Positions 12,064 to 58,790 of a stretch of DNA of 64,000 nt are shown here, piece by piece. The DNA is from Branchiostoma floridae (taxonomy: Eukaryota > Chordata > Leptocardii > Amphioxiformes > Branchiostomatidae): NCBI RefSeq assembly GCF_000003815.2, contig NC_049995.1:16258437-16322436 (forward strand), in the 5' to 3' direction. The stretch's first letter is position 1. The number at the start of each line of letters is the position of its first letter. The position numbers and the translations under genes are program-made. Under the pieces are notes generated by a model. The model was not told where the DNA came from. It saw only the letters and a program-made list of their open reading frames with translations, and did not search any database.

Positions 12064-13082
12064 ACTCGTGTTGTCTGTGTGTGTTCGCTCTCACCAAACC
12101 CGGAAGTGAAGTGTCGAGCCAAACTTCAAAACTTACCACTGAGTACAGCCAACCAACAACAAAAACCACCTGCTTGTATTGTCACACAAATCATTATCAA
12201 TTAAGAGTTTTGCCACTTTGTAAATGTCATTTGTATTTAATCATACACAAATTCATTGAATGCATTAGTGATTTCCGATTCTGGGTTCTAATTTGTTAAT
12301 ATGCGTACATTGTCATGCTATCTGAAAGTTTGCCCGCAATGCCATCTTGATTCAACTTTATTGATGACATCAACGCGCGCGTCAATTTTCGTTTAAAAAA
12401 AGATTCGATCATACTTTAATTCGTAGACACTGCATAATGAACAAAGCCATGTCGTGAATTGAAAACAATATTGGAAAATGGATAGTAATGCCGTGAAATG
12501 CAATAATCAAAGTCAAAGCAGATAACATAAACCATCATCATCCGGGCCTGCTGGTTGCACGGATGGACATTACAACATTATAAAAGAACAAAGATGCAGA
12601 ATATGGTGTTCGTTCAGAATATATAACACAAATATGATATAAGACTCATACTCTTTGTGATAAGTTATTTGTTTAACATTCCTCGCCACTTAGATTTCAT
12701 AATAAAGACATCCTTTTTTTGCCAAACCTTTTTTTATAAGTTTTGCGGTTGCAAACGATGTCATCCATGCAATCAAATCAACATGGCTAATGTTTAACAG
12801 GTGCAGGTTAGTTAGGTAATGATTTGTTTACCGTTGACAAACATTGAGGGACGCACATGTCGTACTCGTGATTATTCCACACCCTATAACGGCAAAGTGC
12901 TGGTTCAATCTAGCTTCATTTGTGCAAGGAGCTGTTCGAATGAGGTTGTGACTAGTTTTCGAGGTCTTCAGCGTCCAAAAAAGGCTTCCAAACTAGGATC
13001 TGGTTGTTACAAGGAGGAGAAGAAGAGTGTTAAGGACTTACTGACTGTTTAAGGATTGCGTTACCCACCATTTGATCCCAAC
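12064..13082. other. Intergenic region between divergent genes
   Basis: No gene is seen. It separates the minus-strand EF-hand gene from the plus-strand FG-GAP gene and presumably holds both promoters. No TATA box or strong motif was recognised. The last 100-150 bases may be 5' UTR of the FG-GAP gene. Confidence 0.4.
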
Positions 13083-28278: not shown

Positions 28279-30085
28279 ATGCCGATTTTAGAGAAGAGGA
28301 AAGCCCAGGAGATGGCCCTGGTGGCCTCCAAGAGACAGAGGAACGAGCTGGTGGCCGTGGCTTCTCAGGAGAGGCAGCTTTTACAAGCGGTGAGTGTTTT
28401 TTAGTAGTTCGTACCGCGTACCGCACGCTTTTTAAGGTGGGAGGGGGGCAGCGGTTTTCTCCCAACAAAATTTTCGACATGAAAGCAGGGCTCGAAAATA
28501 CCACCTGCATATGCAGGTTAGTGCAGGTGAAATTGGAGCTGTGCAGGTATTTCTGATGTCTACCTGCACCTAACCTGCACTGGTCCATATCATGGGTTTC
28601 ATACATAAATGTCCTATGATTAAATAAATAAATAAATAAATAAATTTAGGTGTAAATACTAAAGGGATTGTTATTAGCTGCATCATTTTTATTTTGCTTT
28701 TAACACCTATAAAGTTTAAAATAAATAGATATATTTATATACATAGCAACGGTGCTCACCATTTGTATGATCCTAAGAGTGTNNNNNNNNNNNNNNNNNN
28801 NNNNNNNNNNNNNNNNNNNNNNNNNNNNNNNNNNNNNNNNNNNNNNNNNNNNNNNNNNNNNNNNNNNNNNNNNNNNNNNNNNCCAGCACATAGCATTTAT
28901 CATAGATCTATCAAGACCAGTGGAAGAATAGCTCTTCAGTGAGCTATACTGGATCCATATGATATCACTGTCTTATGTCATAAGTAAAGAAGTAAGAAGT
29001 TAGCATGAAAGTTCATCTGTGTTGGTAGAATACATTATAGAAATAGCTAAACTTTCTTTCCAACACTGAATTAATATAGGGACTTACCCTAGAGACGGGG
29101 GGCGGCACAGACTTTCTGATATTATGACCCCCTCCTGCAAAAGTGGCGTGTTCCTGACGTCACTGCTGGAGATAGGGTCATTCTGTGAACAAGGTCGACG
29201 GACTTGGCCGAAAATTTAGGGTAAGTCCCTATATTAATTCAGTGTTGGAAAGAAAGTTTAGCTATTTCTATAAGTAAGAAGTTGTTTTGTATTTTTGTCA
29301 CCAGTCCTGTGGAATGTGTACGGAGACTGTGAGAACTACGCTGTGCTGAACGGGCACTCTGGAGCCATCATGGAGCTGCAGTTCTCAACAGACGGCAGGT
29401 TCGTCTCGTTAATTCATTTATTGTTTTATAATTCTTGATTACCTGTAACCTCAATTAACTGAGTTACTTGCTCCACTGGTTCCCATAACAAAGGACAACT
29501 GAGGTGCATATAGCAGGGAATTAAAGATGAGAAATAAGATATCCATTCTGGAACCATTTCGGGACATTTGAGCTCACTTCCTGTTCGTGTCCAACATGCC
29601 TAACTTGTGGGAATAACTAGAAACACCCACAGACAAACAGACACACTAAGTCACTAACTAAGATAGATACTTTCTGTAGTGTTTCTTGGAGTTAATGTAC
29701 CCAAAAAAGTCTGCATTTTGTTCCAGAACACTTTTCTCTGCGTCCACGGACAAAACAGATAAAGGTTCACTTGCCTAATGTGGGAATAATTGTAGAAAAA
29801 CACGCAAGCAAACATCTACACATTAGCTAAGAAAGATACTTTCTGTACTGTGCTGTTTCATTGAGCTAACGTAACAAACAACATCTACATTTTGTTCCAG
29901 CACACTTTTCTCTGCCTCCACGGACAAAACGGTGGGCCTGTTTGACGTGGAGACCGGAGCGCGGATCAAGCGGCTGAAGGGACACTCCACATTCGTCAAC
30001 TCCTGCCACCCGTCGCGCCGCGGGCCACAGATGGTCGTGAGTGGGAGTGATGACAGTACCATCAGGGTGAGACCTCTCTCTTTCC

Positions 30086-33100: not shown

Positions 33101-34917
33101 AGGTAATTCAACTCTCGTCATAACAGTCTTAATTTTTCATTCCCCCACAGTTCGTATCTGGGATGTGAGACCGTTTGCTCCACAGGAGAGATGTGTGAAG
33201 ATATTCCAGGGAAACCAGCACAGCTTTGAAAAGGTGGGTACAGCATTGTATTTTAGCCTATGGGGATTTGAATATATGGATGACATCCTAAGTGTTTCCC
33301 CCAACTGATACAAGCATGCAGAAAGAGAAAAGTTGGGAAAAGATAGAAATTGCCTTTATCATAAAATCTTAGTGGTCAGGAAGGTCAATACCACACAGAA
33401 TAATGGTATAGATTTATTTCAAGTCAACCTGTAGGCCACTTTTTATTGAGGTCATGAGGGAAGGGTCAGCTGAAATATAACAAAAATATTGCATTGAGTT
33501 GATCTGAAAAGAGCTACATGCAGGGAAAACTTCAAAGTACAATGATCCTTTAAGTACTGTACATATTGTCTGTCTTCTCTGTCACGACCAGTGGAACGTT
33601 TGCTCATCTAGTCATTTGAGCAAAAGTGGTTTGAATTTCCTTTATTTTTTTCACTTTATTAATATTATCTTCATGGCCTGTCCATTTCAGGACTAAGAGA
33701 CTTTGCTTTATTTCCACCAATCTGTCACTATTGAAACGTCAGTGTAGTAACAGGAGTGTTACGCCGAAGGGCGGTTGTAAGCTGGTGTGCTACGCCGAGG
33801 GGCGGTTATACCGGCTATATAGATACAGATACAGTCAGGTAATAAAGCAATGGTTGTGAAAAAGTCTCTTTATTCAGTCACGTACCAACCAGAAACTCTT
33901 CACAGATGATCTGTTTCATTCCTTCCAGAACCTTACTTGATGTTCTATTTCATCCTCCACAGAATCTTATCCGGTGTATCTGGTTCCCTGATGGTAGTAA
34001 AACCACTGACCGTTTCATGTTTCGTTTTATAATTTTTGTTCATCGCTGTTTTGTTTCATCCTCCACAGAACTTGATCCGATGTAACTGGTCTCCTGACGG
34101 CAGTAAGATCACGGCGGGTTCGGCCGACCGTTTCATGTTTCCTTTTTTAATTTTTGTTCATCACTGTTTTGTTTTAGCTTCCACAGAACAGAACCTTATC
34201 CAGTGTGACTGGTCGCCTGAGGGTAGTAAAACTGCTGAACGTTTTATGTTTCTTTTTTAAATTTTTGTTCATCGCTGATTTGTTTTACCCTCCACAGAAC
34301 CTTATCCGGTGTAATTGGTCTCCAGACGGCAGTAAGATCACAGCGGGCTCGGCCGACCGTTTCGTGTACGTGTGGGACACCACAACGCGCCGCATCCTGT
34401 ACAAACTTCCCGGGCATGATGGGTCCATCAACGAGGTCGACTTCCACCCCTACGAACCCATTGGTGAGTAAAACATATCAACAGTTTAAGGAGCTGTCAC
34501 ACTTGTGCCTATCCTTATCGTTTCGTTAAGTTTCCTGAATACAGGCATATGTGCAGTACAGTCCAGTAAGTTTGTTAGCTTTGGACATGCACAAAAGTAT
34601 TGCATTTTGTGTACAACTGTATAAGAAAATGTCAGTACATGTATTTGATTTGGAATTAGAAAACAAAAACAAGTGTAACAGCTCCCTAACAATCTAATGT
34701 AGGCGCAATGTTATCCACCTTCCCTATTCTAGTTTTGGTCCGGTGCCTGTTAATAGTAGAAGCAGAACAAGTTGTATTTGTATTTGATGATTGAAAAAGC
34801 TAAGAAAGTGTTATGACAAAAACATGAGCTCCTCTCTGACTTGTTGTGTTCTCTCCTTCTTTTCCAGTGCTGTCAGCTTCCAGTGACAAGAAGATTTACT
34901 TGGGGGAGATCCAGTGA
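28279..34917 (+). CDS. SNRNP40: U5 small nuclear ribonucleoprotein 40 kDa protein (WD40), one exon missing
   Basis: Spliceosomal WD40 protein of the U5 snRNP that binds Prp8. Exons: 28279-28389 (PILEKRKAQEMAL), [missing], 29305-29398, 29901-30066, 30795-30917, 32602-32722, 33151-33233, 34298-34463, 34868-34917 (ends YLGEIQ, stop TGA). The family landmarks NVYGDCENYA, STDKTV, RIKRLKGH, QTFQNTYQV, SGGIDNDIK, AMDNT, RPFAPQERCVKIFQGN, SADRFVYVWDTT and RRILYKLPGH are all present in order. Exon 1 ends in phase 0, but exon 29305 needs one extra base before it, and the first WD40 repeat (about 54 residues by comparison with human length) is absent. The 100-N gap at 28783-28882 lies exactly in that interval. 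Several exon edges are duplicated in introns. A polyadenylation signal AATAAA lies at 35178. Confidence 0.93.
28486..28600. mobile_element. Left end of a CAGGGCTCGAAA element with CCTGCA tags
   Basis: It starts CAGGGCTCGAAAATACCACC and is filled with CCTGCA, TGCAGG and AACCTGCAC words. The matching right end (GTATTTCGAGCCCTG) is not seen and may lie in the assembly gap. Confidence 0.5.
28783..28882. other. Assembly gap (100 N)
   Basis: Exactly 100 N, the usual placeholder for a gap of unknown size. It falls in the SNRNP40 interval where one exon is missing. Confidence 1.
29003..29275. mobile_element. MITE, full copy with complementary arms
   Basis: Arms: AAATAGCTAAACTTTCTTTCC, AACACTGAATTAATATAGGG and ACTTACCCTA on the left, complements on the right ending at 29275. 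The centre contains GTGACGTCA-like sequence. It lies 30 bp upstream of SNRNP40 exon 29305-29398. Word lengths are given as separate stretches of the arm. Confidence 0.7.
29722..29765 (+). pseudogene. Copy of the 5' edge of SNRNP40 exon 29901-30066
   Basis: TTTTGTTCCAGAACACTTTT, followed by CTCTGCGTCCACGGACAAAA, mirrors the acceptor and first 40 bases of the real exon. It then diverges, with no donor. Confidence 0.7.
30068..30510. repeat. CT-rich (pyrimidine/purine asymmetric) tract
   Basis: About 440 bp of CTCTCTTTC-type sequence in a SNRNP40 intron. It contains a copy of the 3' edge of the preceding exon at 30133-30186. Arg/Glu-rich antisense frames are artefacts. Confidence 0.85.
30133..30186 (+). 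pseudogene. Copy of the 3' edge of SNRNP40 exon 29901-30066
   Basis: GGGCCACAGATGGTCGTGA, AGTGACGACAGTACCATCAG and GGTGAGGC repeat the last 48 bases and the donor of the exon, with two or three substitutions. It is embedded in the CT tract. Confidence 0.75.
31359..32088. mobile_element. CAGGGCTCGAAATAC-ended element with ACTTGCAC tags
   Basis: Termini are a perfect 15-bp inverted repeat CAGGGCTCGAAATAC, flanked on both sides by CTAAAG (31353-31358, 32089-32094). Subterminal ACTTGCACC and GGTGCAAGTT words occur in both orientations at both ends. The 730-bp element has no transposase. Confidence 0.75.
32165..32440 (-). mobile_element. tRNA-derived SINE, family 1
   Basis: Same body as the copies at 6300 and 11325 (GTAGGAACAGTGGGTTG, CCCTCTCCTTC, TTACACCTGGGTGGAG, GATTCGGACCCAGG). 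It lies in a SNRNP40 intron. Confidence 0.65.
32741..33022 (+). pseudogene. Two extra copies of the 3' half of SNRNP40 exon 32602-32722
   Basis: After the real exon, the segment ACATGGACAC ... CAGGCCTGAGTCT ... GCCATGGA-AACACAGGTAAAC is repeated at about 32820-32900 and 32935-33025, with a shorter trace at 32760-32800. Donors are kept; acceptors are not. Confidence 0.7.
33735..33840 (+). repeat. Dispersed copy of the 56-bp minisatellite
   Basis: GTTACGCCGAAGGGCGGTT, GCTACGCCGAGGGGCGGTTA and TATAGATACAGATACAG match the array at 60209-60975. About two units are present here, 27 kb away. Confidence 0.75.
33950..34245 (+). pseudogene. Three tandem copies of the 5' half of SNRNP40 exon 34298-34463
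   Basis: A unit of about 116 bp (pyrimidine tract and CCACAG acceptor, then roughly the first 66 bases of the exon, up to GACCGTTTC) repeats before the true exon. The copy at 34068-34135 is nearly identical; the ones at 33961 and 34188 are more diverged. Each keeps an acceptor but no donor. Confidence 0.8.
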
Positions 34918-44185: not shown

Positions 44186-47100
44186 ATGACGACCGACTTC
44201 AATGGAAAGTGGAAACTGGTCGACTCGGAGAATTTTGATGCTTATTTACAAGCTGTGGGTGAGTTCGTCCTTCTCTCTCTCGATCCCCCCCCCCCTTCTG
44301 TCTCTCATCTCTTTAGTAGCTATGTTTCTTTAGCTGTCTATCTCTTTCTAAGTTCTCTCTTAAGCTCTCTCTGTCTCTTTAGCCCTCTCTTACTAGCACT
44401 CTCTCTTTTTAGCTCTCTTTATCTCTCTATCGCTCTCTAAAGCTATCTCTCTCTTTAACTCTCTATCTCTTCTCTTGGCTCTCTCTCTCTAGCTGTTTCT
44501 CTATGTTTCTCACTTCTCTCTCCCTCTCTCTTTGTGCCTCTTTGACTATAGCTGTCTATCTGTATTTTTGTCTATTGTCTCTCTCTTTAAGTTAAAACGC
44601 TCTGTCTGCCTCTATAGCACTCTCTCGCTCTCTCTGTTTCTGTCACCATAACTATCTCCCTCCGTCCCTCTCTATCCTGTGTGCGCAACCTTGAACTTGA
44701 AGTTCCCACAATCACTGTTTAACCACAACAGTACACAGCAGGTCCCTTTTTTATGAAATCTCAGGAGCATTCTGTATTTCTGTCCCACCACACAGGAGTA
44801 AACTTCATGATCCGTCAGCTGCCTAAAGCGGCCACACCCAGACAGGTTCCCTTCCTATTGTGATCACGCACTAATATATTAAGCAAACTTTTAAAAGCTG
44901 TAGAAGAACCGTGGTGAACAAGAGAAATTCACTACGCAAAACGACAATTATGTTCTTGGTTTGAGTTCATTGCATGAGCATTCTGTTAACGTTTCTGTCG
45001 CACCTCACAGGGGTAAACTTCATGATCCGTCAGCTGGCGAAAGCGGCCACCCCCAGACAGGAGGTTCAGCAGAACGGCGACAACTTCGTCATCAAGAGCA
45101 GCGGACTGCAGACCAAGGTCACCAACTTCACCATCGGGGAGGAGTTCGAGGATGATTCACCCATCGGAAAAGTCAAGGTGGTTAACTTCCTGTATTCTTG
45201 CTAATCTTTGGTGGGGGTTAGCACATGGGCAGCGCAAGTACAATAGGAGTAACGCGCAAGTGTAGGGCAAAAGCAAGTTCGGCACAAGTATAGCACAAGT
45301 TCGGCGCAAGTGTTGCGCACGTGCCGAGCAAGGACAGCGCAATAGTAGCGCAAGTAATGCGCAACTGTACCGCAAGAGTAGCGCAAGTGCAGCTCAAGCT
45401 CGGCACAAAAGTTGTGCAAGTGCCACACATGTCTAGCTCCATTTGAGAAAAATTTCTTTTGGTAATTTTTATTAATTGATCGCAAACGGTATTTGTCTTG
45501 GTGCGGCCCGTTTGCCCTTTGACACGGAACACGTGAGAGTGACGTCACTCGAAGTTTGCTGGGCAGGCGGGTCGGACGTTTCTTTCTGCTCTCCTTTTTC
45601 AAAGTTTGTGTCTCGGATGTGCTGATATGGAGTCAGATTTTGCGAGAGAGACGTCGGGACGTCGCTGTAAAGTGTGTCGACTCCCGGTGAGAGGCCATCC
45701 GGGTCCATATGGCCGCGGGAAGTGCAAGTTTGAGCGACGGGAAGGTTCATCGGACGAGGAATACTTCAAGCAACAGCGGGGCAGCTCTCACGTTGAGGAG
45801 AAGTTACAAAGTCTCCGTCGGGAAAGCAAAGTTTCCGACCTCGTGCGAGCGGCCTGGTCGGACAGCATCTCCGAGGACACGGACGAGACGCAGGTGAGAC
45901 AGTCGAGATCACTCAACTTGAAGAGGTCTTCGGGCCGCAGCAGGGAGAACGCCAGCACTCGGGCTAGAAGCGAACCCCCTGTCCAGTCTTCCCGCCATCG
46001 CACACGGAGTAGCAGCAGCGAGGCTACGGCAACACGGGACAAGGCGAAGCCTGACATTCGTGATCTCAGAAAGTCTCGGGGTTTAGTCAAGGAAGTAGAC
46101 AAAGCGCTGGACGAGTTGTTGAATCCAGATATCAGCCATGGGAAACAACCCAGAAGCAAGCGCTACCAGGATCGCGGCTCCGTTTCAAGTTCGTCACAGT
46201 CAGACAGCACGGAGTCGGATTTCGTGAGAGAACCGGCCAGGAGGCGCCAGCGACGCAGGGGGTCGCGTGGCAAGAGTGGCAAGATGACAGGGAAACACGT
46301 CTCTTCAAAGCGGCCCGTGTCACGCCGACGCTCTGATAGCTATGATTCGGACACTTCTTCTGGCATGGCTGATGATTCCCGCTCACGTTCTACCAAGCGC
46401 CGCCGACGCCGGGCAGGTAAGAGTGGCAAGATGAAAGGGAAACATGTCTCTTCAAAGCGGTCCGTGTCACGCCGGCGCTGTGATAGCTATGATTCGGACA
46501 CTTCTTCTGGCATGTCTGATGATTCCCGCTCACGGTCTACCAAGCGCCGCCGACGCCGGGCAGGTAAGAGCGGTCGAAAACGTACTATTAATGATTCGGG
46601 TACTCGTCGTGTAAAAGTTGATTGGCCACAGCACAGAGTACACTTCCCAGGACATGGGAAGGAAGGGGGCGTGACTTATGATCAGTTGTCCTTGCCCATG
46701 TTTGTACACGGTTTTCTGAAGAATGTTCTGTATTCGGAGCGGGTTTCGGTTGACGCGGAGCATAAGTTGGTTCATCTAGCAGATCTTATGTTCGATGCTG
46801 TGTACTATAACTGGGAGTTAGTTCGGGAAGTCCACGCATCTTTACTGTACGGGATAGAGTATGGTTCGCTCACGTGGGGTAGCCGCGGCACCTTTGATGC
46901 CGTCAGAGAGAGACACTACCGGACACAAGCTGGCGTCGCTCGTGGCAACCCGTCGTCATCGAAGGCGGGTCCTGTCAGGGAAGCTCGCGCGGCGGGAAGC
47001 AGGCCGCGGTATTGTGGCGGGTTTCAGTACGGCAGCTGTTCCCTACAATCCGGCCATTGGAGTTCACGGTGGAACGCCCCAATGCTACACGTCTGCAGTG

Positions 47101-50100
47101 CGTGCTTGATAGTACGGGGCATACAGGAACCACATTCGAGTCAAGATTGCCAGTACAAACCCCGGCCATTTCTCGGCTCGACAGGGGACACCGCCCACCT
47201 CTCCCAGAGACCGGGTCCCTCACGCGGACGTTCACAGAGTGATCAAGTTACATGAAGAGGTTGCCACACTCGGTAATCTTCCCAATTTTATCGGCGCACG
47301 TAGACCAGTGAATTCAAACCTGAATATACATACTTGGAGAACGTTACTCGAGAATTATGAACACAGACATATAGTAGATTATTTAGAATTCGGTTGGCCT
47401 ATCAATATTCAATCAGAATCGTATATTCCACCGTCAGTTTTGCACCCGAGGAATCACAAATCTGCTACTTTGTATGCTTCACATGTGGATCAGTTTATTT
47501 CGGAAGAGTGTCAACATGATGCCATAGCGGGGCCGTTTGCAACAAACCCGTTTCCTTTCCCTGTGGCCACACTACCTCTACAAACAGTGGAGAAACGCAA
47601 TAGTGATAAGAGAAGAGTTGTAGTGGACTGTAGCTTTCCATATGGACATTCGTTAAATGAAGCAGTACCCAAGGATACATATTTAGGGGACACAGTCCAA
47701 CTGACATACCCATCGGTTGATACCATGACTCAGATGATTTTGAATAAGGGAGCTGGATGTTTGATTTATAAGACTGATCTGAGCCGAGCATATAGACAAT
47801 TGCCTGTTGATCCTAAGGATTACAAATATCTGTGTTATCGTTGGAGAGGTGCCTTCTATGTGGACACTAGACTTGTATTTGGGCTCCGATCATCGGCCTA
47901 TGTTTGTCAGACAACAACATCAGCAGTGACTTTTATACAGAAGGAGAAAGGCTATGACGTGTGTAATTACTTAGACGATTTTGGAGGAGCTGAGGTTCCA
48001 GAAGTAGCTGATACAGCTTTTGCCGATTTACAGTCAACTCTAGCAAGTCTCGGCCTGGACGAGTCAGAACAGAAAGCTGTACCTCCAACCACGTGCATGA
48101 CGTTCCTTGGAATCGAGTTTGATACAGTTTCTATGACCAGGCGTGTACCGCAGTTTCGGTTGGAAGAGATCAGGCTTCTGATTAATTCGTGGTTAAACAA
48201 GAAGAAAGCAACCAGACGTGAACTCCAGTCTCTCATCGGGAAGCTCGTTTTTGTTTCCTCCTGTGTGCCACCAGGACGGCTGTTTATATCTCGAATGTTA
48301 GAGGCTTTGCGTTCATTACGGCGGAATCACCACAGACTGCGGTTGTCACGGGACTTCCGACTGGACCTTCTGTGGTGGCACAGATTCATGGACACATACA
48401 ACGGTGTATCTATGATGGTTACCGATATTTATAGCTACCCGGACGAGTTGGTTATGACTGATGCCTGTGCCACGGGGTGCGGTGCATTTTGTGACGGGCA
48501 GTTCTTCCACAGTGTGTTCCCAGACCACGTGTTGGAGAAGTTTGGATCAAAGATACACGTACTCGAGATGTTGACTATCGTCCTTGCAGTCAGGAAATGG
48601 GGGCCACGTTGGTTCGGACAGCGTATCTCTTTATACTGTGATAATATGGCCTGTGTCTATGTGTTGAACTCCGGACGTGCTCGTGATCGAGATCTGTTAC
48701 ACTGTGCTAGGGAGCTGTGGCTGTTGGCAGCCAAATTCGAGTTCCAGGTTAAAGCTTCGCATATTCAAGGCAGTCACAACCGAATTGCAGATCACCTTTC
48801 CCGGTGGCATCTCTCGGCGTATCATGCTCAGCAGTTTACCCGTCTCACACAGCATCGGTTGACAGTTGAGATTCCGGTATTCCAGGAGGACTTCATCTTG
48901 GATTGCCCTTATTAGTAGAGTAGGTTTTAACGTTTGTTTGTTCTGTTGTGTTTATTTCAGCCCGAATTGATCTTGGACTACTACGTGATCAGGTACGACA
49001 GACTAAGAGAGCAGCGTTTGCTGATGGGACATGGGAGAACTTGAGGACACATTTACGGACTTACCTGCTCTTCTGCACATTCTACGACATAGTCCCGTTT
49101 CCGGCAAAAGTGGATACCCTTGAAACTTATGCTGAATTCCTGAGTCGTTCATTTCGTGCCCCAGCGTCAATAGCAAACTATGTTAGTGGTATTAAGACTT
49201 TCCATATCCTGTTTGGACTGGATACGGCGGCGTTCTCTTCTATGGACTTAGCTCTACTACTACGAGGACTTAAGAAACAGATGAGACATACGCCTCGTCA
49301 GAAGCTGCCTTTCACACCAGACGTCTTACTCAGGATTCATGAACACTTAGATACTTCAGACTCGTTTCAGGCTACTATGTGGACTGTGATACTGTTAAGT
49401 TTCTTTACATTTCAGCGAAAATCTAACTTTGTGTCTAAACATGGTTTCGACCCTACTAAGCAGTTCACTATTCATGATTTTGTTGTATACAAGGGAATTT
49501 TGTTGATCAGGATCAGGTGGTCCAAGACTTTACAATGTGCGGAGAGAGTATTGTATGTTCCGGTGATGGAGATCAAGAATTCTCCCCTCTGTCCAGTATC
49601 AGCGTTCTGTAACATGGTTAGGTTAAACCGCAACAAGAATACGAGTGCGGCCTTTGTTAGACCACATAGGGGTAGATTTGTACCATTGAATCAGAATATC
49701 TTTGACAAGGCCTTCAAGCAGATACTAGGTAGAGCGGGCCTAAGTCCTGCTAGGTACTCTCTCCATAGTGGGCGTAGAGGAGGCGCCACATTTGCATTCC
49801 GTGCAGGAGTTCCCATAGATCTAATCCGCCTCCAGGGTGATTGGCGTTCTGATGCTTACCTACTGTATTTGAAGGTTCCCTTGGCTACAAGATTACGTTT
49901 GTGTTATAGAATGGTTAAGCATATCCAGTGGAAGACGCCTCGGTAGCGTTGAAGGCATTGCAGTGTTCGTAGAGTAGCAATTTCGAGATTACAGTTTGTT
50001 AATTTGTTCATGGGTAATGGGGTCGTGGTGTCTCTCGTCACCTTCATGTTTAATTGTAATTCTGATATTTTTTGTTTTTCTTTTAGCGGTTTGGCCTTTT

Positions 50101-53100
50101 GTTTTTGGTGTTTTCCCCGAAAAAGTTTTTTCCTGATTAAACTTTTTCCTTTTTTCTGCCAAACCGTGTCTTTGTTTGAGTTTGTCCGATAATTTGAGAA
50201 AAATTTCTTTTGGTAATTTTTATTAATTGATCGCAAACGGTATTTGTCTTGGTGCGGCCCGTTTGCCCTTTGACACGGAACACGTGAGAGTGACGTCACT
50301 CGAAGTTTGCTGGGCAGGCGGGTCGGACGTTTCTTTCTGCTCTCCTTTTTCACCCTCCACCACCCCTTTTCTCCGCCAAATGTTATTGAAGGTTAAGTAT
50401 GTTATTATAGTTGTTGAAGTAGTATTACTATTAGTGCTGTGTTTTCCCCGAAAAAGTTTTTTCCTGATTAAACTTTTTCCTTTTTTCTGCCAAACCGTGT
50501 CTTTGTTTGAGTTTGTCCGATAATTGAATGTGTAAAACTTCATCAATGCAGTCTCTTTCCGTTTTGATCATCAAAGTCAACTTTCAAACTGATAGTAGCT
50601 GTAGAACACCTGTAATGAACAAGTAAAACTCATTGAGCAAGACGACAGACAATTATGCTCATGGTTTGAGTTATTGGCATTTAGGCCATGTTGATTTGAT
50701 TATATGGATGACATCCTCCGGGAACTCCAAAACTGATGCGAGCGAGCGAATAAAAAAAAGTTTGGCCAAAAAAAAGTTGCCTTCAGTATGAAATCAAACT
50801 GGCCAGGAGGGTTGAACATAGGACTAAACACACATAGTATGGTATGCCATGATCCTCTGGACCTGAATTTTCTGTACTGGTACCTCCTCTAACCAACAAT
50901 AGTTGTTTTTTTTTTCTTTTCGTCCTTTCACATCTTATTCTTTGACTTTAGATTCATTTGGCATTCTATATATGGCATTAGTTATCTGTTTTCTGATACT
51001 TTTTTTTCAATCTACGGAATATTTGTGCTCATTTTACAGCTGCTTTGCACAATTTTTTGTGTGGTCGAAACTTTTTTTTTTTTTTTTTGGAAATGGCCGA
51101 AATTGGTGCGAGCGCGGATGTCATCCATATAATCAAATCAACATGGCCTTACATAAAATAAGGGTGCAAATATAGCCTGTAACCCGACCGTTATTGACTG
51201 ATATATACAAAATTCTACCACTAATCTATCACTGATAAAATCTGATAATAGATAGTGCGAAGTAACGTTGTGTTTTTATTTATTTGTTTATTTTTTATTG
51301 TTGTTTGTTTCCTACGCAGTGTACAATAACCTGGAAGGACGGGAAGCTCCACACCTCTATAGAGGGACCCCGAGGTCACATGTGGTCAGAACGAGAGATG
51401 CGGGAGGACGGCAGGTGTTATCTCGTGAGTTGATTCATGCCTTTATTTTGAATGAATGAATGAATGAATGAATGAATGAATGAATGGTTTATTGCACTTC
51501 AATAAAAAGAAACATTTTGCAGCCAGTTGGTTGAATTGCACGTTGTTTTACATGTTGTCAAGGTGACATCAAATGGAACTGGACCGAGTTCAGTGGTTTT
51601 TCGAGCGCCTTAGTGCCTCAGCTTACACCTTGTGAATTTAGACACCTCAAAGAAGAAAAAACACATTCAGAAGTGAAACAAATATTACAAAAGCTTTGAA
51701 TATTTCCAGGCGGTAGGAGACTCCGTTGTTGTTATCAATGTGTTGGAACCGTTTATTTCTACAGACGATGTCGGCACCGAACGGGACGACTGCAGTCAGG
51801 ATCTTTGCCAGGGACGAGTAGCCATGGTAACCGTAACCATGGCAACCAGACGACGCTACCATGTCTGATTACAATTTAAGAATCAATCAGTATGTTTTTA
51901 CTGTTCAGAATTGTGAAGTTTAAGGTTAGATATAAAGTGTTATTAATTACAACAAATTATCTTAAAGATACAAGTTAGCCCATCTTTGGGAGGGAAAGCA
52001 CTGCATCCGAAACCAACTGCCACAGGTTCTACAGAGTCCACCAGACAAACAACAAACCCCACAAGCTATGGACACTAGCAAGACAACAGCCAGAGTATCA
52101 GAGAGACCTTAAGAACCTCATACTCCTCAGTACCATCCCAACCAGACACACCGTAAAAGCATGTCCAACCTGCCACAACGCTACAGAAGACTTGGTCGGT
52201 CATCTATTCACCAGATGTTTCACTTTTGACCACTTACGACAAACCCTGGCAGAAGAAATAGCAAACACCCTGGGAGTAAGAGTCATGGCAAAAGTGCACG
52301 AGCAACCAGATGAGAGGTTCACAGAGGTCATGCTGGGTGCCGAGATAGTAGAAGAAGCTGTAGAACCAGCTGTGTGGAGCGCCTTCATCACAACAACGGC
52401 CAGATTGCTCCGCCCTCTAGCAGCCATGGCATTAAAGCACGCCACCTGGAAAGAGAGGCAAAACTGCAGCACGGGGAAGGAGAATAGAACACACGAGAGC
52501 TGAGGACGTACAGACGAGAGAAGAAGAAAGAGCTGAAAAGAGCTAGACTTAAACTACCCCCAACAAAGGCTACAACACAGCCTCGACAGAAGCTAGACTG
52601 TGAGTTAAACATACGAGCTGTGGAGAACTGAACTGTGTAGAGTCACAAGGAGTTGTAGAGAATGATACAGAAAGGGTCACTGAACCTTGAAAGTGGAACT
52701 CTAAAGAACTTTAGAGAACTCTTGAGAGTTATGTGTACAATGCACAGAAATAGAGACGAGAAGAGACAGTTATTATGGTATGATAGATCTGATCGAGTGA
52801 TTTTTTTAATGTCCCAATGGTCAGCAGTAGACTAGACGTTTGGGGCATGGGATACCCCTGGCAGGTTCGTTCACCTGCCCTCCGAGAGATTGTAAATATG
52901 AGTACGAAATTACGACAGTATAAGGATATAATTTATTTTATTTTAACAGGATTGCTATGTACCACATGTTTAATGTCACGGCTTCCCCTTTGTAAATACT
53001 TCAGCTATGCAATGCTCTCCCAAGGGAGGAATAAAGTACAAGAAAGAAAGAAAGAATGAATGGTTTATTGCACTTCAATAAAAAAAAACATTTTGCAGCC

Positions 53101-53398
53101 AGTTGGTTGAATTGCACGTTGTTTTACATGTTGTCAAGGTGACATAAAATGGAACTGGACCGAGTTCAGTGGTTTTTCGAGCGCATTAGTGCCTTAGCTT
53201 ACACCTTGTGAATTTAGACACCTCAAAGAAAGAAAAAACACATTCAGAAGTGAAACAAAAATTACAAAAGCTTTGAATATTTCAAGGCGGTAGGAGACTC
53301 CGTTGTTGTTATTAATGTGTTGGAACCGTTTATTTCTGCAGACGATGTCGGCACCGAACGGGACGACTGCAGTCAGGATCTTTGCCAGGGACGAGTAG
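44186..53398 (+). CDS. Fatty-acid-binding protein, copy A (interrupted by Ngaro element; last exon doubled)
   Basis: Intracellular lipid carrier of the FABP/CRABP family. Exons: 44186-44258 (MTTDFNGKWKLV...), 45011-45177, 51320-51424, and a last exon present twice, 51765-51821 and 53342-53398. Exon sizes 73/167/105/57 and phases follow the family's conserved four-exon plan; the product is 133 residues. FNGKWKL at the N-terminus and the terminal RIF in VRIFARDE fit the fold (the arginine binds the carboxylate). Intron 2 (6.1 kb) holds a tyrosine-recombinase retrotransposon; intron 3 has GAAT repeats. Both last exons encode the same 18 residues. A copy of the exon 2 start with its acceptor lies at 44793-44850. 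Whether the gene is expressed normally with this load is not visible. Confidence 0.9.
44270..44660. repeat. CT-rich tract in FABP-A intron 1
   Basis: CTCTCT, TTAGCTCTCT and related words over 390 bp. Confidence 0.8.
44793..44850 (+). pseudogene. Copy of the 5' edge of FABP-A exon 2
   Basis: CACAGGAGTAAACTTCATG, ATCCGTCAGCTGCCTAAAGC and GGCCACACCCAGACAGG repeat the acceptor and first 50 bases of exon 45011-45177, then stop. Confidence 0.75.
45217..45430. repeat. Degenerate GCGCAAGT minisatellite
   Basis: About 15 imprecise repeats of a 12-16-base word (AGCGCAAGT, GGCACAAGT, TGCGCAAGT). It ends just before the retrotransposon's left repeat. Confidence 0.7.
45627..47255 (+). CDS. Gag-like ORF1 of the Ngaro element
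   Basis: A 542-codon frame from ATG 45627. Near the N-terminus a C-x2-C...H...C cluster (CKVC ... GRGKC) looks like a zinc knuckle. The middle is very Arg/Ser-rich, with a tandem pair of about 48-residue repeats (around 46270-46560: GKHVSSKR, DSYDSDTSSG, STKRRRRRAG). The C-terminal third is more globular. This would be a nucleic-acid-binding structural protein. It overlaps ORF2 by 17 bases. Confidence 0.75.
   Translation: MESDFARETSGRRCKVCRLPVRGHPGPYGRGKCKFERREGSSDEEYFKQQRGSSHVEEKLQSLRRESKVSDLVRAAWSDSISEDTDETQVRQSRSLNLKRSSGRSRENASTRARSEPPVQSSRHRTRSSSSEATATRDKAKPDIRDLRKSRGLVKEVDKALDELLNPDISHGKQPRSKRYQDRGSVSSSSQSDSTESDFVREPARRRQRRRGSRGKSGKMTGKHVSSKRPVSRRRSDSYDSDTSSGMADDSRSRSTKRRRRRAGKSGKMKGKHVSSKRSVSRRRCDSYDSDTSSGMSDDSRSRSTKRRRRRAGKSGRKRTINDSGTRRVKVDWPQHRVHFPGHGKEGGVTYDQLSLPMFVHGFLKNVLYSERVSVDAEHKLVHLADLMFDAVYYNWELVREVHASLLYGIEYGSLTWGSRGTFDAVRERHYRTQAGVARGNPSSSKAGPVREARAAGSRPRYCGGFQYGSCSLQSGHWSSRWNAPMLHVCSACLIVRGIQEPHSSQDCQYKPRPFLGSTGDTAHLSQRPGPSRGRSQSDQVT
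47239..48915 (+). CDS. Reverse transcriptase-RNase H ORF2 of the Ngaro element
   Basis: The 558-codon frame is in the +1 frame relative to ORF1 and has no early ATG (it opens on GTG), so frameshift or other coupled translation is likely. RT motifs: TDLSRAYRQLPVDP, FGLRSSAYV and the catalytic YLDD. RNase H motifs follow: DACATGCGAF, LEMLTIV, DNMACVYVLNSG and a final HIQGSHNRIADHLSR. The order and spacing match DIRS-group RT-RH proteins. Confidence 0.85.
   Translation: MIKLHEEVATLGNLPNFIGARRPVNSNLNIHTWRTLLENYEHRHIVDYLEFGWPINIQSESYIPPSVLHPRNHKSATLYASHVDQFISEECQHDAIAGPFATNPFPFPVATLPLQTVEKRNSDKRRVVVDCSFPYGHSLNEAVPKDTYLGDTVQLTYPSVDTMTQMILNKGAGCLIYKTDLSRAYRQLPVDPKDYKYLCYRWRGAFYVDTRLVFGLRSSAYVCQTTTSAVTFIQKEKGYDVCNYLDDFGGAEVPEVADTAFADLQSTLASLGLDESEQKAVPPTTCMTFLGIEFDTVSMTRRVPQFRLEEIRLLINSWLNKKKATRRELQSLIGKLVFVSSCVPPGRLFISRMLEALRSLRRNHHRLRLSRDFRLDLLWWHRFMDTYNGVSMMVTDIYSYPDELVMTDACATGCGAFCDGQFFHSVFPDHVLEKFGSKIHVLEMLTIVLAVRKWGPRWFGQRISLYCDNMACVYVLNSGRARDRDLLHCARELWLLAAKFEFQVKASHIQGSHNRIADHLSRWHLSAYHAQQFTRLTQHRLTVEIPVFQEDFILDCPY
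48948..49946 (+). CDS. Tyrosine recombinase ORF3 of the Ngaro element
   Basis: A 332-codon frame with the tyrosine-recombinase plan: an N-terminal core-binding part, a first catalytic Arg (RKSN), HSGRRGGAT as the H-x-x-R motif, GDWRSDAY and a nucleophile-region YLLYL. It integrates the circular intermediate. There is no ATG start; the frame opens 33 bases after the ORF2 stop and just after a splice-acceptor-like TTTATTTCAG (48951-48960). Confidence 0.8.
   Translation: MFISARIDLGLLRDQVRQTKRAAFADGTWENLRTHLRTYLLFCTFYDIVPFPAKVDTLETYAEFLSRSFRAPASIANYVSGIKTFHILFGLDTAAFSSMDLALLLRGLKKQMRHTPRQKLPFTPDVLLRIHEHLDTSDSFQATMWTVILLSFFTFQRKSNFVSKHGFDPTKQFTIHDFVVYKGILLIRIRWSKTLQCAERVLYVPVMEIKNSPLCPVSAFCNMVRLNRNKNTSAAFVRPHRGRFVPLNQNIFDKAFKQILGRAGLSPARYSLHSGRRGGATFAFRAGVPIDLIRLQGDWRSDAYLLYLKVPLATRLRLCYRMVKHIQWKTPR
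51478..51987 (+). repeat. 510-bp direct repeat, left copy (contains FABP-A last exon)
   Basis: Starts GAATGAATGG inside a (GAAT)n run and ends CCCATCTTT. About ten small differences from the right copy, none within the coding exon. It runs straight into the LINE fragment at 51988. Confidence 0.85.
51988..53053 (+). mobile_element. LINE 3' fragment between the 510-bp repeats
   Basis: An open frame (about 52010-52503) ends with an RT C-terminal knuckle (CPTC ... HLFTRC) and a stop; a 3' UTR with AATAAA at 53030 and an (AAAG)n tail follow. The 5' end is truncated at GGGAGGGAAAGC. Its ends coincide exactly with the ends of the 510-bp direct repeats. Confidence 0.7.
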
Positions 53399-53564
53399 CC
53401 ATGGTAACCGTAACCATGGCAACCAGACGACGCTACCATGTCTGATTACAATTTAAGAATCAATCAGTATGTTTTTACTGTTCAGAATTGTGAAGTTTAA
53501 GGTTAGATATAAAGTGTTATTAATTACAACAAATTATCTTAAAGATACAAGTTAGCCCATCTTT
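53054..53564 (+). repeat. 510-bp direct repeat, right copy
   Basis: About 98 percent identical by eye to 51478-51987, including the acceptor, last FABP-A exon (53342-53398), stop and 3' UTR start. It continues into unique 3' UTR with AATAAA at 53691. Confidence 0.85.
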
Positions 53565-53864
53565 AGTTAAAGATACACAGGTAGTTGTTAGTTGTATTTG
53601 TGTTCTGTAATATTCTGATGTTTTGTTGATTCTGATGTTTTGTTGTTGTTGATTGCATTACTTTTATGAAAATTGATTATTTCTTTTACCAATAAATGTT
53701 ACGGAAAAATATCATTCTTTTTTTTAATAAAAGCTGCATTTGAGAAATAAATTATCATCAGCATCAAAATGTATCAAAGATGAAAGAGAAAATGTAACTA
53801 ATTATGCTCTGTAAAATAAAACACTTCTCAACATGTTTGTGAGTCTGTCTAAGTGTGCACACAC

Positions 53865-55423: not shown

Positions 55424-57627
55424 ATGGCTGCTAACTTCACCGGAAACTGGAAGCTAGTTGAGTCGCAGAATTTCGACGAATATCTGCAGGCCCTTGGTGA
55501 GTCATAATATACTTCTTTCACATCATAAAGTCCCAGGTATAACATAAACCAGTCTATATAACAGTTCTTGTCTAGACTTTATATTTACTTTACTTTACGT
55601 TGTTACTTGCCAAGAAAAAAATGTAAAATACACACTAAATGTCTGTTTGTGGCGTCGTCTGTGGCGTAACTGGTAGAGCGTCCTGCTCGGAATCCTAGAG
55701 GTCCCGAGTTGGATACCCGCCATGCTCCCAACGTTGTGCCTTTTGAAAGCTACACAGGCTTCCTCATTTACATGGGGAAAAAATGGGTACCTGACTTCGG
55801 TTGGGAGGTAAAAGTAAATTTTGCAATCCTGTGTATGTGGCGCTGTTAAAATAAGTTTCTTCCTTGAGTGCAGTGCCACATTGTCCTCGTCTGTCAAAAA
55901 TTGGTACCTGACTTCGGCCGGGAAGGTAAAAGTCTACCTTTACCTTCTGTCTGTACCGTGTATGTGGCACTGTTGATATAAGTTACAAACTTGAGTGCAG
56001 TGCCACATTGTCCTCGTCTGTCTGAAATGGCTACCTGACTTCGGTCGGGGAGGTGAAAGAAAAGATTACCGTTACCTTCTGTCAGTACTGTGTATGTTAA
56101 AATAAGTTACTAATAAACTTGCAGTGCCACATTGTCCTCGTCTGTCCGAAGCAAAATAGGAAAAAAAAGCTATGGGAAGTGAATGAGGCCACTTGCATCA
56201 GTGTCCACTAACCGAGACGGGGGTTGATACCAACTTCCAGGCACCTTTGACGCTTTGCTGACGTCACAAATCCGGTCTGAGTGTATGACATAGGCTTTGG
56301 CTCATTTCAACTTGATAAGGATCAGAGGACTGATGGAATTAGCGCTTTATTTTGTGTCGGATAGAAAGTTGTAAAATTGTAAATAATGTTGACTACCGTC
56401 ACAGATGAACTTACATTCAAGAAAAAAACTCTCTGTGTCCAATCCAGGCGTGGACGCCGACAAGCGGAAGATCGTGGTGAGCGCCAGTCCTCGTCACGAG
56501 ATCCAACAAGACGGTGACAGTTTCACGGTCAAGACCACCGGCCTCCAGAACAAGACTATCAGCTTCAAGCTCGGAGGACAGTTTGAGGACGAGTTGCCTT
56601 CGGGCAAAGTCAAGGTCAGTACCATTTTTCTGATCTTTAAAATGGTTAATATTTAGCGTCCCCTGCTCTTAGTACAATGCTAGACTTTCTTCCAACACAA
56701 AGGTATACCATGGATCAAATTTTCAACAACCACTGACGCCGCTCCTGACCAATCACTTCAGAACGTAAACTCGCGAGAGTTAAGAACACGTGGTCTTGCG
56801 GATCTTTGACGTCAGCAGTTGGTCAAACGTGCCAGGAAGTTTGATAACAACCAACGCAGATATTACATGTCGGTAGTATATGTCACTTGCAATCAGTTGG
56901 GCAATAATTTGCAATAAACGCATGTATAATTAATAATCTTATGTTGCATATTATGTATCACCACAGGTCGTGCCTACTTTAGTCGGAGGCAAGCTGCATT
57001 TTGAAATCGAAGGACCGAAGGGAAAGATGACCACCGACCGGGAGATCCGCGCAGACGGCCGGCTCTACATGGTCAGTACTTCTGCGAAATGAAAAATGCC
57101 CCTGCAGTTCCAAAGCAAGCTGCTAGGGGGCCAAACATACAATACGCCTTCCGTACATCCGTAGCTATATGCCAAAAAAATCAAGACCATAGCATGTCCA
57201 GGTAAAAATGATTTTAGAAAATCGAAGTTCTGCTGCAGTACCAAGGTCACATAACAGGGGGCCCAGCATCGACCCTGGCCTTCCTCTTTCCAATATATAC
57301 CCACATACCAAATAACATTACAATTCATTCAGATGTTCTAATGTTATGCTGACCACAAATATGCGGAAACACAAACACGCAGATAGACAGACACATAGCT
57401 AGGTACAGCAGAGAGACAGACAGACACACCAAAAACTAGACCTCCATTTTTCATAGAGGTAATAATGAGAAAAATTAAGATTCTATATAGTCTTCCTCGC
57501 TCAGTTTACTGATCAAACATCGTTTTGTCACAGCAGACTATAAATCTGTTGTTTTTGTTTCCATGATTGCCAGGTGATGACGGCTGGGAACGGGACCACC
57601 TGCACCAGGATCTTCGCCAGGGAGTAA
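55424..57627 (+). CDS. Fatty-acid-binding protein, copy B
   Basis: Coding exons 55424-55496, 56448-56614, 56967-57071, 57574-57627 (stop TAA) give 132 residues, with exon lengths 73/167/105/54, almost as in copy A. Translation starts MAANFTGNWKLVESQNFDEYL. The shared exon 2 pattern is QQ-GD-F-K--GLQ-K, and the end RIFARE carries the ligand-binding arginine. An upstream non-coding exon (about 54910-54980) has a TATA box at 54880 and splices to 55411. Copies A and B diverge strongly in the middle of the protein, so the duplication is not recent. A polyadenylation signal lies at 58114, which would give a 3' UTR of about 490 bp containing several X-box-like palindromes. Confidence 0.92.
55645..56150 (+). 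mobile_element. tRNA-derived SINE (family 2) with triplicated tail
   Basis: The head TGGCGTAACTGGTAGAGCG and GAGTTGGATACCC lie at 55660-55720. The tail unit (TACCTGACTTCGG ... GCAGTGCCACATTGTCC) then repeats three times with a period of about 116-128 bp. Confidence 0.65.
56680..56790. mobile_element. MITE fragment (22502 family)
   Basis: CTTCCAACACAAAGGTATACC, then GATCAAATTTTCAACAACC and CCAATCACTTCAGAACG: one arm of the family described at 22502-22733. Confidence 0.6.
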
Positions 57628-58312: not shown

Positions 58313-58790
58313 TATTTGGGTGGGTGAGTGTGTTTGTGTGTGTGTGNNNNNNNNNNNNNNNNNNNNNNNNNNNNNNNNNNNNNNNNNNNNNNNNNNNNNN
58401 NNNNNNNNNNNNNNNNNNNNNNNNNNNNNNNNNNNNNNNNNNNNNNNNNNNNNNNNNNNNNNNNNNNNNNNNNNNNNNNNNNNNNNNNNNNNNNNNNNNN
58501 NNNNNNNNNNNNNNNNNNNNNNNNNNNNNNNNNNNNNNNNNNNNNNNNNNNNNNNNNNNNNNNNNNNNNNNNNNNNNNNNNNNNNNNNNNNNNNNNNNNN
58601 NNNNNNNNNNNNNNNNNNNNNNNNNNNNNNNNNNNNNNNNNNNNNNNNNNNNNNNNNNNNNNNNNNNNNNNNNNNNNNNNNNNNNNNNNNNNNNNNNNNN
58701 NNNNNNNNNNNNNNNNNNNNNNNNNNNNNNNNNNNNNNNNNNNNNNTGCTTTGTGTGCGTGTGTCTGTGTGTCTGTTCGTGTGTTTTCAC
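58190..58790. repeat. GT microsatellite containing an assembly gap
   Basis: (GT)n on both sides of 400 N (58347-58746). The gap probably reflects collapse of the repeat. Confidence 0.9.
58347..58746. other. Assembly gap (400 N)
   Basis: A run of N inside the GT microsatellite; an estimated-size gap. Confidence 1.

Follow-up and report, generated by a model that had tools for sequence, protein, structure and literature searches.

Background

The target-site duplications (TSDs) of LINEs are usually short; in DT40 cells, L1 typically makes TSDs of 15 bp and ZfL2-1 of 5 bp (PMC4245944). Among 25 inserts of ZfL2-2 in wild-type DT40 cells, one carried a TSD of 1,228 bp and the other 24 showed target alterations of 20 bp or less; 3' microhomology was found in about 80% of the genomic copies of this element (PMC2666801). 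The TSDs of L1 in NER-deficient human cells range from a few base pairs to several kilobases. In three NER-deficient lines, TSDs longer than 100 bp were found in 4 of 7, 21 of 23 and 22 of 28 inserts, compared with 3 of 9 in a complemented line and never more than 10% in earlier HeLa data, and the authors suggested that long L1 TSDs could duplicate exons and later recombine (PMC5223499). Extremely long TSDs and target alterations, often with 5'-truncated L1, have also been noted in HeLa assays and were thought to be a peculiarity of HeLa cells, but the study that mentions them covered only TSDs of 5–30 bp and lends weak support to a long-TSD reading (PMC2912911). A study of lepidopteran RTE elements beside microsatellites has, in the part drawn on here, no bearing on priming at microsatellites (PMC2887409). 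In the parts of these papers drawn on here, the very long LINE TSDs were found in cultured or repair-deficient cells. Long TSDs make up only a small share of those in normal cells, which weighs against a long-TSD reading of a natural locus.

In this study, the duplicated last exon of a FABP gene was analysed in a 64-kb stretch of lancelet DNA, hereafter the window. Two near-identical copies of the exon lie in direct repeats of about 510 bp on either side of a LINE-like insert. The locus resembles the long-TSD insert of ZfL2-2 in having an insert with 3' microhomology between direct repeats that greatly exceed 20 bp; unlike that de novo insertion of a marked element in culture, it is an aged reference copy, with a LINE-like insert and a duplication that spans an exon. 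It also resembles the large L1 TSDs of NER-deficient human cells, which measure hundreds of base pairs to kilobases, but here the insert is a LINE-like fragment that has a microsatellite tail and lies in a microsatellite target, in place of human L1 with its poly(A) tail. A natural germline case within a gene would, if true, mean that exon duplication by a long TSD occurs in nature and is retained, and would offer a locus for comparing two last exons with different 3' UTRs. If the arrangement came instead from allelic exchange or assembly error, it would call for caution with exon duplications read from draft sequence.

The FABP gene and its last exon

FABP genes have a four-exon layout with a short last exon. 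Gene A in the window has this layout, with exons of 73, 167, 105 and 57 bp encoding a protein of 133 residues (Table 1), and it has the lipocalin/FABP domain as well, residues 6–92 matching Pfam family PF00061 at E 2.2e-12. A second FABP gene, a paralogue with a matching exon layout, is located at 55424–57627, and its last exon, VMTAGNGTTCTRIFARE, is similar to the duplicated exon 4. An earlier candidate acceptor near 51707 was dropped; the exon 4 peptide of the paralogue fits the downstream acceptor. At 44777–44846, a 70-bp partial copy of the start of exon 2 and its acceptor was observed, 91% identical to 44992–45061.

Table 1 Features of FABP gene A and of the repeated block, in window coordinates
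Feature	Position	Strand	Basis
FABP gene A exon 1 (coding)	44186..44258	+	ATG to GT donor; joined model of 133 aa plus stop
FABP gene A exon 2	45011..45177	+	joined gene model; Pfam PF00061 on joined protein
FABP gene A exon 3, followed by GTGAGT donor	51320..51424	+	gene model
(TGAA)9.5 microsatellite in intron 3, with left edge of repeat inside	51449..51486	+	repeat detection
Left copy of 510-bp direct repeat (R1)	51478..51987	+	alignment
Exon 4 copy 1, acceptor CTACAG, stop TAG, peptide TMSAPNGTTAVRIFARDE	51765..51821	+	gene model
TTAAAG, its AAAG beginning 24 bp before 5' insert junction; possible ordinary LINE target if insertion and exchange were separate, a weak cue	51962..51967	+	motif scan
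Insert between repeats, LINE-like 3' fragment, 1,066 bp	51988..53053	+	alignment boundaries, open frames
Insert part of open frame (51979–52503, stop to stop), CPTC-x9-H-x4-C motif	51988..52503	+	open frames
AATAAA near insert 3' end	53030..53035	+	motif scan
(AAAG)n tail of insert, continuing into GAATGAATGG of R2	53040..53053	+	sequence, alignment
Right copy of direct repeat (R2)	53054..53564	+	alignment
Exon 4 copy 2, acceptor CTGCAG, coding sequence same as copy 1	53342..53398	+	gene model
First AATAAA past R2 stop, probable original poly(A) signal	53691..53696	+	motif scan

An earlier note on this DNA had claimed that a FABP last exon with acceptor and stop codon lies in both repeats, and the same 57 bases were indeed found in each. 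Because both copies are the same complete exon, the protein is unchanged whichever of them is spliced, and it is ruled out that the two last exons encode different proteins. According to the gene model, the choice of exon 4 can alter only the length of intron 3 (340 bp with copy 1 or 1,917 bp with copy 2, by coordinates), the 3' UTR and the poly(A) site.

The direct repeats

The repeats R1 and R2 were placed correctly in the earlier note, and their alignment covers 511 columns and contains 8 substitutions and a single one-base gap. Only 9 differences over this length rule out a chance repeat. R1 is continuous with the upstream flank and R2 with the downstream flank, giving the order R1, insert, R2, and the matches to R1 in the window are R2 and otherwise only the last exon of the paralogue.

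The local alignment extends slightly further (51466–51987 against 53042–53564; 11 mismatches and 1 gap). Its first three mismatches, at 51469, 51473 and 51477, set GAAT units of the target on the left against GAAA units of the tail on the right and thus mark the switch from target to insert tail, so the repeat proper begins at 51478 and 53054. That no base separates repeat and insert, as had been stated, is true, but only by defining the insert as the sequence between the repeats. At the right junction, GAA is common to the GAAA tail of the insert and the GAAT target. The rest of the (TGAA)n array is kept on the left flank, as a simple split of the array would predict. Read in reverse, the left edge of the repeat (51478–51510) ends in TGCAATAAACC(ATTC)n, and it could represent the 3' terminus of an older element on the opposite strand.

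All 9 differences between R1 and R2 fall within the left 285 of the 511 columns, and the right 226 columns are identical (P 0.005 for a clear right end; P 0.049 for any clear run of at least 226 columns). This pattern leans against even ageing of two copies identical at birth, which would need conversion or constraint to fit it well. The clustering could reflect gene conversion after the duplication, constraint acting on exon and UTR, or descent of the copies from different alleles.

The age of the duplication was estimated from the lancelet mutation rate of 5.89e-9 per base per generation (PMC12862219, as far as that source was drawn on). By arithmetic, 8 substitutions in 510 bp correspond to about 1.3 million generations, assuming that the copies were identical at birth. 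The diversity of 0.0397 given in the same source implies a mean allele coalescence of about 3.4 million generations; the estimated age is smaller, and therefore an empty-site allele might still segregate.

The LINE-like insert

The open frame at the left of the insert encodes a CxxC-H-C motif (CPTC-x9-H-x4-C), a pattern typical of the C-termini of LINEs, which we take to be the C-terminal zinc knuckle of a LINE. It is followed by 550 bp with many stops in that phase, AATAAA and (AAAG)n. The AATAAA and the (AAAG)n tail are both present at the right end of the insert, the latter as a short run, and the simple-repeat tail thus stands after the 3' UTR as it does in LINEs. Judged from the C-terminal frame, the CxxC-H-C motif, the AATAAA and the tail, the insert looks like the 3' end of a 5'-truncated LINE.

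Among Pfam families, none matched the 174-aa frame of the insert at E 0.01 or better, and DUF2939 alone was listed when the limit was raised to E 10, at 0.032 and below its cutoff. The PDB search returned two rows, at E 0.73 and 1.1, both unrelated, and these negative Pfam and PDB results count against a LINE insertion. The insert would hold only the C-terminus of a LINE, which limits the comparison of RT and endonuclease by Pfam and PDB. No second copy of the insert was found in the 64-kb window by blastn, and tblastn of the frame returned only the frame itself. The predicted fold of the 3' end of the insert had a z of −1.75, and 10 of 200 shuffles were as stable.

Origin of the duplication

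The block of two repeats around a LINE-like insert is a real feature of the sequence as given. We lean towards its origin in a LINE insertion by target-primed reverse transcription (TPRT) from the (GAAT)n tract, with a TSD of about 510 bp. The LINE RNA would have been inserted in sense orientation after a first nick, on the bottom strand, within the (GAAT)n microsatellite that lies in FABP intron 3; the exposed end there could pair with the GAA-rich LINE tail. An early stop of synthesis would leave a 5'-truncated copy. The top strand would be cut about 510 bp downstream, compared with the usual few to 20 bp, and fill-in of both ends would duplicate the greater part of intron 3, all of exon 4 and the beginning of the 3' UTR. 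The repeats, the microsatellite junction, the tail and the duplicated exon are seen in the sequence itself; we infer that the insert is a LINE, that TPRT brought it in and that a single event also produced the duplication.

The layout is that of TPRT: direct repeats immediately flank the insert, whose bounds are set by them, and the tail end is beside the downstream copy. Priming is consistent with the GAA that tail and target have in common, and one event accounts for both repeat ends. The earlier note had recognised the layout of a TSD and the duplication of a complete terminal exon, and both are borne out; it had regarded 510 bp as far longer than usual, and this length, although rare, is within the published range of LINE TSDs, so no new mechanism is needed. 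The same layout is, however, also expected from an ordinary insertion with unequal exchange or from a haplotype switch in the assembly, which leaves a TSD as one of several possible sources of the arrangement.

An assembly artefact is unlikely in our judgement. LINE-bearing and LINE-free alleles would have been joined head to tail at the tetranucleotide tract, leaving a false tandem duplication, and the right junction does lie in low-complexity sequence. In the part of PMC9516828 drawn on, 4–16% of the sequence in older assemblies of three vertebrates consisted of false duplications, most of them of diverged alleles and with exons among them, and some were bridged by wrong gap filling. The locus is like such false heterotype duplications in its near-identical neighbouring copies, allele-like divergence and draft-looking sequence. 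The window has N runs at 28783–28882 (100 bases) and 58347–58746 (400 bases, beside (GT)n), and lancelet heterozygosity is given as 3.2–4.2% in the part of PMC12862219 used. These two N runs are the only ones in the window, however, and no gap separates the copies, whereas false duplicates are most often separated by gaps (PMC9516828, in the same part). Both junctions are clean, and the copies flank an insert, unlike typical duplications of this type.

Two separate events are improbable as the origin but would produce the exact layout, including a right junction inside the microsatellite. An ordinary LINE insertion with a short TSD would have taken place where the repeat ends on the right (TT/AAAG, 24 bp, is one candidate), and a later unequal exchange with an insert-free chromosome would have joined the (GAAA)n tail of the LINE to the (GAAT)n tract of the intron. 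A second repeat would thereby be placed after the LINE, and R1 and R2 would derive from two alleles. At about 3% (9 of 285 columns), the left part of the repeats differs much as alleles do in a highly heterozygous species, and a mosaic of alleles would readily give clustered differences. Homologous exchange is poorly served by the junction, where tail and tract are alike at only 9 of 12 positions, and two events are required. The TTAAAG shortly before the 5' junction would be a suitable target for an (AAAG)n tail, and a TTAAAG this near is rare over three larger stretches of the window (26 of 7,300, 198 of 27,000 and 312 of 29,000 positions; 0.4–1.1%). The cue is weaker locally, where it applies to 19 of 547 positions around the repeat, counting the site itself, and to 32 of 835 immediately downstream, with plain AAAG this near at 123 of the 547, and it was picked after looking.

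Taken together, an exchange or an assembly origin is a serious possibility, though not the one we expect. A tandem or template-switch duplication unrelated to the insertion, with the LINE there before or inserted after, is very improbable: both repeat ends would have to coincide by chance with both insert ends (themselves set by the repeats), and nothing specific speaks for it, although the partial copy of exon 2 shows short duplication elsewhere in the gene. Copying of FABP mRNA into the locus, or 3' transduction, was rejected, as R2 contains intron sequence and no poly(A) stands between it and the downstream flank.

A natural long-TSD insertion of a LINE that copied an exon is the most likely reading of the block. 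Long TSDs are already published, and such an insertion would most likely be a further case of a known process.

Polyadenylation and the two 3' ends

No AATAAA was found between the left stop codon and 53030, and only ATTAAA at 52431 occurs there. Use of the polyadenylation signal of the LINE by the left copy of exon 4 is therefore plausible from the motifs. Downstream of R2, further AATAAA motifs are located at 53726, 53746 and 53815. It is doubtful as a whole that a germline LINE insertion with a 510-bp TSD gave a working gene two last exons for the same protein with different 3' UTRs, one of them supplied by the LINE. Were it so, the locus would be a natural case in which long-TSD retrotransposition duplicated an exon in one step.

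Other putative mobile elements in the gene

Intron 2 of FABP gene A contains a tyrosine-recombinase-type retroelement at 45441–50525. Its RT frame (47113–48909) matched Pfam RVT_1 above the cutoff and RVT_3 below it, and its recombinase frame (48924–49943) matched Phage_integrase at E 1.3e-4, below the cutoff. The element has split direct repeats, with 45441–45601 equal to 50192–50352 (161 bp) and 50108–50194 equal to 50439–50525 (87 bp), all 100% identical, and the sequence suggests that it was inserted recently. The order of RT, recombinase and split direct repeats is presumably that of Ngaro/DIRS elements. A 467-bp element at 50683–51149 has perfect inverted ends of 34 bp, with a TTA at either end that shares one base with the arm, and it looks like a MITE. 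Diverged partial relatives of it were observed near 12338–12787 and 33245–33385.
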